Origin: Ochrovirga pacifica
GTDB lineage: Bacteria > Bacteroidota > Bacteroidia > Flavobacteriales > Flavobacteriaceae
Assembly (NCBI RefSeq): GCF_000220525.1
Contig: NZ_AFPK01000044.1
Location: 62,001 to 126,000 of the forward strand
Length of the DNA stretch: 64,000 nt
Reading direction: 5' to 3'
The notes under the pieces are model-generated. The model was not told where the DNA came from and made no database searches. It saw only the letters and a program-made list of their open reading frames with translations. How positions within the stretch are numbered: the stretch's first letter is position 1; each line of letters begins with the position of its first letter. Of the stretch, positions 57,441-64,000 are shown piece by piece. The position numbers and the translations under genes are program-made.

Positions 57441-58049
57441 ATGGGAAGAGTTAGTTTGCAAGATAAACGTCGAGAAGAAATAACCATGGCCTTTTATGAA
57501 GTAGCAAAAGAGGTAGGATTAGAGAACGCGACCATTGCCAAAGTTGCCGATAAAATGAAGATTAGTAAAGGCCTGGTAATGCATTATTTTGCCACTAAAG
57601 AAAGTTTGATTTTTGCTTTGAATGATGAAATTTTAAACCGTTATCTAAACTTTGTAGTTTCTGATAAATACCTGAATATTTCAACCCAAAAAGAATTAGA
57701 AAACTATATCCGTTCTTTATTTTCTAGAGAGTGGAATCACTATATAGACGATGGTGTATTTTATAGTTTTTACGCTATGATTTATCAGAATGAGAAAATA
57801 CGAGCCAATTATCGGAACTTTTTATTAGAAATAAGAAATGGAATTTACACTATCTTAACAAATAGCCATCAACAAGGTATCATTAAAAACGCAGATATTA
57901 CAAAAACTGCAAATATTTTGTACGCTTTGATAGACGGTGCATACTTTCAGTTGGGGTCGCATATAAATAATGAAGTATCGTATTTAGAAGAATCGCAATT
58001 GTTTATTGATCACGCTTTGAGCCTGCTTGAGTTTTCTGAACTTTCTTGA
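57441..58049 (+). CDS. TetR/AcrR family transcriptional regulator
   Basis: A 202-residue TetR regulator with a typical helix-turn-helix at residues 8-55: RREEITMAFYEVAKEVGLENATIAKVADKMKISKGLVMHYF, followed by KESL. The C-terminal ligand-binding helices have no obvious ligand. It is divergent from the alkaline-phosphatase-susC-susD operon, with a TetR-like palindrome between them, so it is the likely repressor. Its 3' end overlaps the convergent small membrane protein gene by 47 bases. Confidence 0.93.
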   Translation: MGRVSLQDKRREEITMAFYEVAKEVGLENATIAKVADKMKISKGLVMHYFATKESLIFALNDEILNRYLNFVVSDKYLNISTQKELENYIRSLFSREWNHYIDDGVFYSFYAMIYQNEKIRANYRNFLLEIRNGIYTILTNSHQQGIIKNADITKTANILYALIDGAYFQLGSHINNEVSYLEESQLFIDHALSLLEFSELS

Positions 58050-59438: not shown

Positions 59439-60605
59439 TTATTTAAGTTCTACCAACAAAGGATATTCTAATTTGTTTTTAAAATCTTTTAAATAGGCTT
59501 TCCACTCTGCTTCGGTTGTAAACTCTTTGGCTTTTTTCCAACCAAAACCAGCATAATACGTTACTTTATTGTTGTTAACTTTTAGATGCGCATAAGCATT
59601 GCATAAATCTTTTTCTTCTACAATGTAAGTTTCTTGACCTAAAAAATCATTATTGCTAGCAACAATTCCCGTTCCTATTTCAGAATCTTGTAAAGGTTCC
59701 CAGTAGCTCATCCAACCTTGCTTTTGGTTAACATCTACTTTTCCTTTTTGATCGTGTAGAGTCAAGCCTACAGCAACCTTGTCTGTACCTGTTATAAAAG
59801 TTTCTATTTTAGATAAATTATTTCCTTTGTCTAAAGTGATGATTTTATGCTCTGTTATGGTTTGATCTCCCACCTTCCAATCTGCAAACTTTAAATAAAA
59901 AGAAGTTCTTAAAGGCCCTGTAGTGATGGTTTTCCATGCGGTGTAATTTTTAGAAAAATGATAGGTGTTATTTTCCTTGATAGCCAAACCACCAATTCCC
60001 CTACTTACACCTACATGAAAGTTATCGAGACCTTCTCCTGTATCTTTATGATAAGCTCCAGGATGCTCGTCATTTTCTGCATACCATTTGTTGATGATTG
60101 AATAAGAAACTTTTTTTAACCAACCGTCTATACCGCTAGAAAGTGTTCCTCCTGGTACTCCGTCTTCTTTCATTTTTTGAGCAGTGGGACCATACATTCT
60201 AAAAGCCACTTTGTCATTTTCCCATGTATAATCATCGGTGCGTTCTGGAACAAATCTAGAATAACACCATGTTTCAGACTTAGGTTGTTCTTGCTCGGTA
60301 ACCGTAACTACAGCAAAATTTGTTTCAGAATTACTTTCTACTTTGGGCTGAAATAACAATTCATCCATTTCTCCATCTCCGTCAAGATCAACCAATTGCA
60401 CGACCTCTAGTTGGCCAGTACTTTTATTTTTAATTCCTATATTCTTAAGACTTTCTACTTTTAAAAACGCTTTGGTTAAGACCACATTTTCTGAAGAACG
60501 AGGCACATCTAAGGTGTTTTTAACAACAATGTTTGTTTGTTTCTTACAAGACAAGAAACAAACAAACCCTAATAAGATTCCTAATTTATTGATAGTACGT
60601 AACAT
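59439..60605 (-). CDS. DUF4861 family lipoprotein
   Basis: A 388-residue lipoprotein: hydrophobic leader MLRTINKLGILLGFVCFLSC, with lipid-modified Cys20. The ATG at 60605 is preferred to 60635, which would overlap the upstream gene and bury the signal. The mature part is beta-rich and belongs to DUF4861, whose members accompany uronate-degrading enzymes in Bacteroidota polysaccharide clusters. It includes an acidic stretch DLDGDGEMDELLF, possibly calcium-binding. The enzymatic role is unproven. The gene begins 4 bases after kduD in the kduI-kduD operon, so it likely acts on the same uronate glycan. Confidence 0.87.
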   Translation of the reverse strand: MLRTINKLGILLGFVCFLSCKKQTNIVVKNTLDVPRSSENVVLTKAFLKVESLKNIGIKNKSTGQLEVVQLVDLDGDGEMDELLFQPKVESNSETNFAVVTVTEQEQPKSETWCYSRFVPERTDDYTWENDKVAFRMYGPTAQKMKEDGVPGGTLSSGIDGWLKKVSYSIINKWYAENDEHPGAYHKDTGEGLDNFHVGVSRGIGGLAIKENNTYHFSKNYTAWKTITTGPLRTSFYLKFADWKVGDQTITEHKIITLDKGNNLSKIETFITGTDKVAVGLTLHDQKGKVDVNQKQGWMSYWEPLQDSEIGTGIVASNNDFLGQETYIVEEKDLCNAYAHLKVNNNKVTYYAGFGWKKAKEFTTEAEWKAYLKDFKNKLEYPLLVELK

Positions 60606-60609
60606 AACA

Positions 60610-61401
60610 TTAATTTTCGTTAGAAGGTTTACCAATGGTTGCTAAAATACCACCATCTACATAAACTACATGTCCATTAACAAAATCACTTGCTTTAGAA
60701 CTTAAAAAAATAGCTGCTCCTTGCAAATCTTCTGGGTCTCCCCATCTAGCTGCTGGCGTTCTATTGATGATAAACTCGTTAAAAGGATGACCGTCTACTC
60801 GAATAGGTGCAGTTTGGCTAGTTGCAAAATATCCAGGACCAATTCCGTTGGTTTGTATGTTGTATTTTGCCCATTCTGTAGCCATGTTTTTGGTTAACAT
60901 TTTTAAACCTCCTTTGGCAGCAGCATATGCACTTACAGAATCTCTTCCCAGCTCACTCATCATAGAACAAATGTTGATAATTTTTCCTCCTCCTCTTTGT
61001 ATCATTCCTTTTGCAACTGCTTTAGAAACAATAAAAGGAGAAATTAAATCCACGTTAACAACCGCAGTAAAATCAGCTACTTCCATTTCAATCATAGATG
61101 TTCTTTTGATAATTCCCGCGTTGTTGATTAGGATATCAATAGGTGCGACCTCTGCTTCTATAGTTGCTATTCCCTTTACTACAGCTGCCTCATCGGTTAC
61201 ATTAAACACATAACCATAAGCTTCTATTCCACAAGTTTTGTATTCTAACAAAGCTTTGTCTATAGCTTGTTGAGACAAATCGTTTACCACTATTTTAGCT
61301 CCTGCCTTTGCTAATCCTTTGGCCATAGCCATTCCTAATCCATGTACTGCCCCTGTTACTAGTGCTGTTTTTCCTGTTAAATCAAATAAGTTAATTGACA
61401 T
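60610..61401 (-). CDS. kduD: KduD-type 2-dehydro-3-deoxy-D-gluconate 5-dehydrogenase
   Basis: KduD reduces the diketo sugar made by KduI to 2-keto-3-deoxygluconate with NAD(P)H. This 263-residue short-chain dehydrogenase shows TGAVHGLGMAMA, LINNAGI, ICSMMSELGRDSVSAYAAAKGG (Ser and YxxxK) and GHVVYVDGG at the C-terminus. It follows kduI by 35 bases. Assignment to KduD rather than gluconate 5-dehydrogenase rests on the kduI neighbour. Confidence 0.92.
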   Translation of the reverse strand: MSINLFDLTGKTALVTGAVHGLGMAMAKGLAKAGAKIVVNDLSQQAIDKALLEYKTCGIEAYGYVFNVTDEAAVVKGIATIEAEVAPIDILINNAGIIKRTSMIEMEVADFTAVVNVDLISPFIVSKAVAKGMIQRGGGKIINICSMMSELGRDSVSAYAAAKGGLKMLTKNMATEWAKYNIQTNGIGPGYFATSQTAPIRVDGHPFNEFIINRTPAARWGDPEDLQGAAIFLSSKASDFVNGHVVYVDGGILATIGKPSNEN

Positions 61402-61436: not shown

Positions 61437-62279
61437 TTATCTTAATTCGTTGATTTTACACATGTCCATATCGCTATAGTCTAAATTTTCTCCTGCCATT
61501 CCCCAAACAAAAGTGTAAGCAGAAGTACCAGACCCTGAATGAATAGACCATGGTGGTGAAATAACTGCTTGTTCATTTGCCATCCACAAGTGTCTTGTTT
61601 GGGTTGGTTGTCCCATAAAATGACATACAGCTTGGTCTTGAGGAACATCTATGTAGAAATATACTTCCATTCTTCTATCGTGAACATGTGCTGGCATGGT
61701 ATTCCACACGGAACCTTTTTTTAAGGTAGTCATTCCCATTTGTAGTTGACAAACATTCAATACACTGTTTACAATGTACTTACGAAGTGTTCTTGCATTG
61801 GCTGTTTCTTCGGAACCTAACTCAACAGTTTCTACATCACCTAACCCAATTTTTTTAACAGGGAAAGATTGATGTGCAGGTGTAGAGTTTATATAAAACT
61901 TAGCAGGTTCTTTTGCATTGTTACTTTTAAATGTTAGCTCTTTGTTGCCACTACCCACATACAAAGCCTCTTTGTGATCTAGTTCATATGTAGTTCCATC
62001 AACTTCTACCAAACCTTTGCCTCCTACATTTATAACTCCCAATTCACGTCTTTCTAAAAAGTAATTTGCCTTTAAAGCATCTACCGTTTCCAACTTAACA
62101 GCTTTGTCTATTGGCAGGATTCCTCCAATAACATAACGATCATAATGAGAGTATACCAATCTTACCTCATCTTTGATAAATAAAGTCTCGATTAGAAATT
62201 CATCTCTCAATTCTTGCGTATCCATTTGCTTCACTTCTCTGGGTGATGCCGCATATCTAGTTTCTACATTTTTCTTCAT
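61437..62279 (-). CDS. kduI: 5-dehydro-4-deoxy-D-glucuronate isomerase
   Basis: KduI isomerises the unsaturated-uronate product 5-keto-4-deoxyuronate to a 3-deoxy-2,5-diketo sugar acid in pectin, alginate-like and other uronate catabolism. The 280-residue protein is a cupin, with the metal site visible: His198, His200 and Glu205 in MPAHVHDRRMEVYFYID and His247 in SPPWSIHSGSG. The length is standard. It leads the operon with kduD and the DUF4861 gene, and a 38-bp palindrome lies in its promoter. Confidence 0.97.
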   Translation of the reverse strand: MKKNVETRYAASPREVKQMDTQELRDEFLIETLFIKDEVRLVYSHYDRYVIGGILPIDKAVKLETVDALKANYFLERRELGVINVGGKGLVEVDGTTYELDHKEALYVGSGNKELTFKSNNAKEPAKFYINSTPAHQSFPVKKIGLGDVETVELGSEETANARTLRKYIVNSVLNVCQLQMGMTTLKKGSVWNTMPAHVHDRRMEVYFYIDVPQDQAVCHFMGQPTQTRHLWMANEQAVISPPWSIHSGSGTSAYTFVWGMAGENLDYSDMDMCKINELR

Positions 62280-62306
62280 AATGTTATACTTTTTATGATT
62301 TTTTGG

Positions 62307-62371
62307 TAAATGTAGTAAATATTTTAAAAATACAATCGATTGTATTTTTAAAATATGAATTTATATATTTG
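62307..62371. promoter_or_regulatory. Divergent promoter pair joined by a 38-bp palindrome
   Basis: The perfect palindrome spans 62319-62356, with core TACAATCGATTGTA. Its two TTG triplets act as -33 boxes. Rightward, TTG (62340-62342), 21 bases, TATATTTG (62364-62371). Leftward, TTG (62333-62335 on the minus strand), 18 bases, TACATTTA (62307-62314), a one-base mismatch to TAnnTTTG. A regulator bound here would cover both promoters. Confidence 0.7.
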
Positions 62372-62410
62372 TTATCAATTCATTTCAGTACTATTTTTAC
62401 ATGGTTGTTT

Positions 62411-62446
62411 TTTTAGAAACGTATCAACTTTACTGCGTTTCTAAAA
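62411..62446 (+). other. Hairpin in the leader of the regulator gene
   Basis: TTTTAGAAACG (62411-62421) and CGTTTCTAAAA (62436-62446) are perfect complements around a 14-base loop. The hairpin lies in the predicted 5' leader, 32 bases before the ATG, with no T run, so it is not a standard terminator. Confidence 0.55.
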
Positions 62447-62478
62447 CATGATTATTGACTGTTAGACTTACTTAATTT

Positions 62479-64000
62479 ATGACTCTAAAAAACTCTTTTT
62501 TATCTAGAATTCTTATCTTATTTTTCGGACTGATTGTTGGTCAAAACAACAGCTTTGGACAAACAGCTTTTGACAAATTAGAAAACCTACGCTTTAAGCA
62601 TTTGTCTATTAAAGAAGGGCTTTCTCAGCGATCTGTTACTTCCATTATACAAGACTCTAAAGGATATTTATGGTTGGGTACAAGAGATGGTTTGAACCTG
62701 TTTGATGGAACTAAATTCGTTGTATTTAGACACAACTCCGAAGATACTACAAGTCTTAGTCACAGTTGGGTCACTTCCGTTTTTGAAGACAGTAACCAAA
62801 ATATTTGGATAGGAACTACAGATGGGTTGAACTTGTACAATCCTAAAGAGCGAAATTTCATCCGTTATCAACAAAATAATCCTCATAACTTTTTAACCGA
62901 TAATAATGTTTGGAATATTGCTCAAGTTGATGATAAAACCCTATGGATTACCACCAATAAAACTATAACAGTAGTTGATATTGACAGTAAAAATTCTATG
63001 TCTTTGCCCAAAAAAATTAGTGACATTATTCAATTTAATCAAGTACGATCTATTTACAAACCACACGAGAATTATGTTTGGCTGTGTACCTCTAAAAAGA
63101 TTATTCAGTACAATTTACTGTCTAACAAAGCTTTGTTCTATTCCTATCCGAATACTTCTAGCAATGAAGCACATCACAACAATTCTCCTAAAATTTACGA
63201 AGATGCACATAAAAACATTTGGCTGGGTTACGAAAACGGATTGGCTATTTGGGATGCCAAACAAAACAAATTTGTAGATGCCCCTTACAACATTACAAGT
63301 CCTGTTAGAGCTTTTAATGAAGACCTTGATGGAAATTTATGGATTGGTAGTTATACTGGCTTGTACATTTTAAATTCACAAAGAACTAAGGTCAAACAGT
63401 TTACCAACAATCCTAACCAGCTGGGGAGTTTGAGTCAAAACTCAATTTATGCCATTACTAAAGACAACCGTGGAGATTTATGGATTGGTACTTGGGCTGG
63501 TGGTGTTAATTACTTTGATTACAATTTTCAAGCTTTTCAACAAATTGCTTATGGAACTAGCAATAAAATGTTAAACTATAGTGTAGTTAGTTCTATTATA
63601 GAACTACAAAACGGTAACTTATTTGTGGGGACTGAAGGTGGTGGTTTGAATTTTTATCACAAAAACAACGATATTTTTACTTACTACAAACACAATCCTA
63701 AAGATGCAAGCTCTATAGGCTCTAACAACATCAAAGCACTTTTGTTAGACCAGCAACAAACGTTGTGGATTGGGACTCATGACAAAGGTTTGTTTTACAC
63801 TGATATTCAAAAAAAGCCGTTTTCATTCCACAAAGTAAACCCCGTTTTGAATGATGGAGGTTCTTTAGAAGAGTGTAGAATTTTAAGTTTGTATCAAGAC
63901 GAACAACAAAATATATGGATTGGAACCTTGTCTAAAGGACTTTTTGTATACAACACCACCAACAAAACCATCAAAAAAATAGCCAATCATTTGAAATCGA
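62479..64000 (+). CDS. Hybrid two-component system regulator, N-terminal part
   Basis: The reading frame is open from the ATG at 62479 to the window edge (507 codons visible). A signal peptide ends about NNSFGQ (residue 27). At least seven beta-propeller (Reg_prop) repeats follow, each with the pattern (L/I)W(I/L)GT..GL (for example GYLWLGTRDGLNLFD, QNIWIGTTDGLNLYN, GDLWIGTWAGG). This is the periplasmic glycan sensor of SusC/SusD-linked hybrid regulators, whose kinase, receiver and AraC-type domains would lie beyond the window. It sits divergent from kduI, so it probably senses the oligosaccharide and controls the region. Confidence 0.93.
   Translation, partial: MTLKNSFLSRILILFFGLIVGQNNSFGQTAFDKLENLRFKHLSIKEGLSQRSVTSIIQDSKGYLWLGTRDGLNLFDGTKFVVFRHNSEDTTSLSHSWVTSVFEDSNQNIWIGTTDGLNLYNPKERNFIRYQQNNPHNFLTDNNVWNIAQVDDKTLWITTNKTITVVDIDSKNSMSLPKKISDIIQFNQVRSIYKPHENYVWLCTSKKIIQYNLLSNKALFYSYPNTSSNEAHHNNSPKIYEDAHKNIWLGYENGLAIWDAKQNKFVDAPYNITSPVRAFNEDLDGNLWIGSYTGLYILNSQRTKVKQFTNNPNQLGSLSQNSIYAITKDNRGDLWIGTWAGGVNYFDYNFQAFQQIAYGTSNKMLNYSVVSSIIELQNGNLFVGTEGGGLNFYHKNNDIFTYYKHNPKDASSIGSNNIKALLLDQQQTLWIGTHDKGLFYTDIQKKPFSFHKVNPVLNDGGSLEECRILSLYQDEQQNIWIGTLSKGLFVYNTTNKTIKKIANHLKS

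Follow-up and report, generated by a model that had tools for sequence, protein, structure and literature searches.

What protein reads the long palindrome that lies between kduI and the divergent gene of a hybrid two-component regulator (HTCS), and does it govern one of these genes or both? In the window, a stretch of 64,000 nucleotides from Ochrovirga pacifica, this is the sole perfect palindrome of more than 16 bp. Its inverted symmetry extends without mismatch over 38 bp (ATATTTTAAAAATACAATC/GATTGTATTTTTAAAATAT), as a sequence-only reading of the same DNA had claimed, and the start codons (ATG) of kduI and of the HTCS gene are 58 bp and 141 bp, respectively, from its centre (Table 1). A chance origin is ruled out, since no palindrome longer than 28 bp arises when the 199-bp intergenic region (62280-62478) is simulated 20,000 times with a Markov model. 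The same reading was right that neither a LacI-type regulator nor an HTCS-type direct repeat accompanies the palindrome: there are no direct repeats of the kind expected of an HTCS-binding site in the intergenic region, and the HTCS gene is the only regulator gene of the window to adjoin the palindrome, the next one encoding a TetR protein (57441-58049). The HTCS protein (1360 aa) runs past the end of the window and carries Reg_prop, Y_Y_Y, HisKA, HATPase_c, Response_reg, and HTH_18 domains. From the comparisons below, the palindrome is very probably the operator of a KdgR-like LacI repressor, through which kduI-kduD-DUF4861 and the HTCS gene would be jointly controlled. This reading is based on the conservation and position of the site, its co-occurrence with a LacI protein, the geometry of the kduI promoter, and gene order in relatives.

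Table 1. Features of the kduI-HTCS region (window coordinates).
Feature	Position	Strand	Basis or remark
kduI, 5-keto-4-deoxyuronate isomerase (proposed target)	61437..62279	-	Pfam PF04962
kduD-like SDR dehydrogenase, putatively in an operon with kduI	60610..61401	-	PF13561; kduI-kduD order kept in relatives
DUF4861 protein, putative end of the kduI operon	59439..60635	-	PF16153; order kept in relatives
HTCS gene, 5' part (proposed target)	62479..64000	+	profile domains
Perfect 38-bp palindrome (operator with symmetric arms)	62319..62356	none	palindrome scan, Markov copies
18-bp operator core AATACAATCGATTGTATT, conserved; putative LacI-family site	62329..62346	none	family conservation
TTG of the kduI promoter, -33 position	62333..62335 (CAA on + strand)	-	spacer 18
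kduI -7 box TACATTTA	62307..62314	-	spacer 18 from TTG; 18-20 in relatives
TTG of the HTCS promoter, possible -33 box	62340..62342	+	spacer 21
HTCS -7 box TATATTTG	62364..62371	+	homologous to the Wenyingzhuangia LacI promoter

Conservation was assessed in family-level relatives (301 genomes), O. pacifica (G000; 3.38 Mb in 77 contigs) being the sole genome of its genus in the comparison set. Among the things that the sequence-only reading had named as speaking against a function were a lack of conservation in close relatives and the absence of any other copy in the genome. Neither is seen: the exact core is present in 23 of the 301 same-family genomes (a reversed control pattern in 0), and a near-copy lies in the promoter of a LacI gene elsewhere in O. 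pacifica. Of the 38 bp, the 18-bp core is conserved, and the outer parts fall outside the conserved site. Among the best 30 kduI loci, about half carry the core upstream of the gene, either exactly or with one or two changes, and in one relative a symmetric double change is found (AATCCAATCGATTGGATT). The distance to kduI in relatives is mostly 48-135 bp. As an even palindrome with a central CG, the core fits the length of 16-22 nt given for LacI operators (PMC4052901). Such operators are expected some 30-140 bp upstream of start codons, a range that includes kduI (58 bp) and in which the HTCS gene (141 bp) is marginal.

In a wider scan of one genome per species, at least 117 exact sites were found in at least 116 stretches. 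Among the matches listed, 52 of 117 exact sites have kduI on one side and a LacI gene on the other, 17 of 117 have no recognised neighbour, and others precede kduI alone, LacI alone, or genes for TRAP-transporter dctP, kdgK, uxaC, lyase-like, and SusC proteins. The neighbours tallied from these listed matches thus include the targets expected of a regulon for the KDG (2-keto-3-deoxygluconate) pathway (kduI, kduD, kdgK, and uptake), and kdgK-kdgA and uxaC-kdgK loci also have the site (L089, L091). Carriers among the matches listed include Flavobacteriaceae, Flammeovirga, Reichenbachiella, and one Saprospiraceae MAG. In O. pacifica itself, the site-bearing genes are kduI, HTCS, and LacI only. 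Two one-mismatch copies in this genome (C32:6211 and C56:18415) are within coding sequence and were treated as chance, as was a copy with two mismatches inside an ORF of the window (16119).

The LacI proteins beside the sites form one orthogroup. Nearly all of them fall in a single group (support 100/98) that excludes the remaining LacI proteins of O. pacifica, and the orthogroup is present in 23/23 core-bearing genomes versus 11/278 others (Fisher p = 1.7e-26). Its only O. pacifica member is encoded on contig C44 (101397-102401), alone among unrelated genes. This protein is 72-80% identical to Wenyingzhuangia proteins and groups with L106 (support 97/81). Its domains (PF00356, PF13377, PF00532) correspond to an N-terminal LacI helix-turn-helix and a periplasmic-binding-protein-like sugar-sensor domain, and its PDB matches include CcpA and PurR. 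The promoter of its gene holds the near-copy of the operator (AACAATCGATTGTA / CCTACAATCGATTGTTGG), centred 78 bp from the start and matched over the inner 14 bp only, with one mismatch; the gene is thus probably autoregulated through its own version of the site. The sequence-only reading had likened the palindrome to a LacI-type operator and suggested that control might come from a distant gene. The first guess agrees with the even symmetry, the central CG, and the many listed sites between kduI and one LacI orthogroup; the second is borne out by the orthologue encoded on contig C44, whose gene has a near-copy of the site in its promoter.

The operator overlies the kduI -33 region at a constant position, since in 47/63 distinct relatives TANNTTTR lies 18-20 bp from the TTG of the palindrome. 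At spacers of 16-23, the element is found in 48/63 kduI promoters, whereas shuffled sequences give 2.4 on average and 10 at most. In Flavobacterium johnsoniae, the -7 consensus was confirmed and a -33 motif was not found (PMC7366714); the fixed spacing at kduI may therefore reflect placement of the repressor rather than contact with the sigma factor. In the LacI direction, spacing varies among relatives with a peak at 14, and the TTG there is consequently not clearly a -33 box, even if a spacer of N21-22 is shared by the window, the Wenyingzhuangia relative, and the C44 LacI promoter (-7 box TATATTTG at N21 from TTG). The TTG and -7 elements that had been proposed from the letters alone are all present, with spacers of 18 and 21. 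The accompanying claim that the palindrome holds the -33 boxes of both promoters stands for kduI and is less certain for the HTCS gene, where the spacing is not conserved. Downstream of the HTCS promoter, at about 62391-62402, there is a second -7-like element, TACTATTTTTAC; the LacI promoters of contig C44 and of the Wenyingzhuangia relative have similar elements in a comparable position.

Gene order in relatives suggests how the HTCS gene came to face the operator. Wenyingzhuangia sp. 2_MG-2023 has the order SusC, HTCS, LacI, palindrome, kduI, kduD, DUF4861, with identities to O. pacifica of 83% for kduI, 80% for LacI, 66% for HTCS, and 80% for SusC. The module HTCS-LacI-[palindrome]-kduI recurs at 15 loci, LacI then HTCS on the same strand. 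In O. pacifica, LacI is absent from the slot between palindrome and HTCS, and a search of this interval for a LacI remnant gave no convincing match (best E 2.9). When aligned with the Wenyingzhuangia LacI promoter, the HTCS-side promoter scores 60.5, versus 38.6 +/- 4.4 for shuffles (0/1000). With LacI gone from its slot and the two promoters homologous, the HTCS gene appears to be the heir of both the LacI promoter and its operator. Snuella sedimenti likewise has HTCS-[palindrome]-kduI, with LacI elsewhere.

These relationships bear on the possibility that the palindrome controls kduI alone, the HTCS gene being a mere neighbour with an independent promoter. This is unlikely, but it carries some weight: the site is much closer to the kduI start than to that of HTCS, relatives differ in the spacing on the side away from kduI, and the second -7-like element lies downstream. 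Against it, the promoter on the HTCS side is a homologue of the closest relative's LacI promoter and keeps TTG-N21-TATATTTG, the LacI-HTCS pair recurs, and Snuella shows the same arrangement. With 141 bp between the centre of the palindrome and the HTCS start codon, and a second possible -7 element downstream, repression of the HTCS gene may be partial.

A model of joint control can be proposed, in which the binding of the protein, its action as a repressor and not an activator, and the identity of the inducer are all inferred. When unsaturated uronate is lacking, a repressor dimer would sit on the 18-bp core, over both divergent -33 regions, and hold kduI-kduD-DUF4861 and the HTCS gene low. 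Lyases and GH88 enzymes are expected to give unsaturated uronates, which KduI and KduD convert to KDG. With 4-deoxy-5-ketouronate set free by these enzymes, the repressor would be released by an intermediate, probably KDG, and the degradation pathway would rise jointly with the sensor of the neighbouring polysaccharide locus. The ancestral place of the repressor gene would be between palindrome and HTCS, as is still the case in relatives. Past the right end of the window (L046:11399-19901) are genes for SusC/SusD, GH88, a DUF4955 pectate-lyase-like protein, a sulfatase, and a PL8-type lyase. The GH88, DUF4955, sulfatase, and PL8 genes suggest that the substrate is a sulfated uronic-acid polymer.

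The arms that flank the core (62319-62328 and 62347-62356) are perfectly symmetric, and in many genera arm sequence differs between species. Symmetric arms occur in 13 genera including that of the window (L166, L189, L124, L200, L195, L172, L111, and others), reaching 60-62 bp in Flammeovirga and an Algibacter MAG. Half-arms of at least 16 are found at 16/97 sites, where chance pairing of arms would give 0.94 and none of 2000 shuffles gave more than 5; when each genus contributes a single site, there are 7.0 such cases versus 0.4 expected. Another LacI operator type shows symmetric arms too. Template switching is described as perfecting imperfect inverted repeats (PMC7202029, PMC8794818), and as the simplest cause it probably made the arms symmetric. 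That the arms are themselves functional and add to regulation, as a hairpin or cruciform or through a second pair of contacts that read symmetry instead of a set sequence, with long perfect palindromes being selected, seems improbable.

The other operator type, TGTTCAAACGTTTGAACA, is found at L268:9613-9630 (G000:C67) and also at L204:6091 and L197:1819, and its arms are symmetrically extended in relatives as well. On contig C67 it separates a LacI gene from a divergent operon with kdgK and kdgA, and this LacI is the nearest paralogue of the C44 protein. KDG kinase and aldolase were considered as co-targets of the C44 protein in O. pacifica, and no site was found at their genes in the C67 cluster. 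Since these genes stand beside a different LacI paralogue, the regulon in O. pacifica may comprise only two or three promoters.

It is very improbable that the true occupant of the kduI site is another regulator, whether the C67 paralogue, an AusR-type GntR protein, or the HTCS itself. Candidates do exist: O. pacifica encodes 9 LacI and 2 GntR proteins, and alginate genes of Zobellia are reported to be repressed by AusR, a GntR protein (PMC8286568). However, both co-occurrence with the site and flanking of it are seen for the C44 orthogroup only, the C67 paralogue was rejected on account of its own different palindrome, the two GntR genes do not flank the site, the HTCS-type direct repeat is absent, and an even palindrome with a central CG suits LacI proteins (PMC4052901). 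Finally, a hairpin (terminator, attenuator, or cruciform) in place of a protein site can hardly be credited, despite a stable fold as single-stranded DNA (z = -7.2) and the sequence-varying symmetric arms of many genera, because the palindrome precedes both -7 boxes and is thus a DNA feature absent from either transcript, the core is conserved to the base beyond what pairing alone requires, and there is no GC-rich stem.

Flavobacteriia and parts of Cytophagia degrade much marine algal and animal polysaccharide. For uronate catabolism in these groups, the comparisons provide a base-precise candidate operator and a named candidate repressor. If the proposal is true, a cytoplasmic LacI repressor stands above the gene of a periplasmic-sensing HTCS, and the last part of the pathway acts back on the sensor that stands at its start. 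The window seems to illustrate what follows once a repressor gene has moved out of its cluster and the sensor gene has taken over its promoter. Bacteroides KdgR (BT0487), UxaR, UxuR, and UxmR are LacI-family proteins predicted to control uronate and KDG catabolism (PMC3878776, PMC4052901). The likeness to KdgR (BT0487) is one of regulon content, and unlike the Bacteroides set, the regulon described here is built around kduI-kduD, TRAP uptake, and lyases, and belongs to Flavobacteriia and some Cytophagia. The available text of a survey of LacI-family operators does not name the core AATACAATCGATTGTATT (Ravcheev et al., 2014, PMC4052901), and the regulator gene here is apart from its target, with a hybrid sensor gene in its place. 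A search of the literature for the motif text CAATCGATTG, which does not reach motifs given only in figures, gave no report of the motif as a LacI operator among the 10 of 20 hits listed, all of which deal with other subjects. AusR of Zobellia galactanivorans is likewise described as a local repressor in a marine flavobacterial uronate-polymer system that is relieved by degradation products (PMC8286568, PMC7874173), but it belongs to the GntR family, whereas the co-occurring regulator here is a LacI protein. The symmetric, drifting arms form a natural data set for the template-switch evolution of operators. One further symmetric element is found in the region, a perfect 11-bp inverted repeat (TTTTAGAAACG) with a 14-nt loop at 62411-62446, within the leader predicted for the HTCS mRNA.
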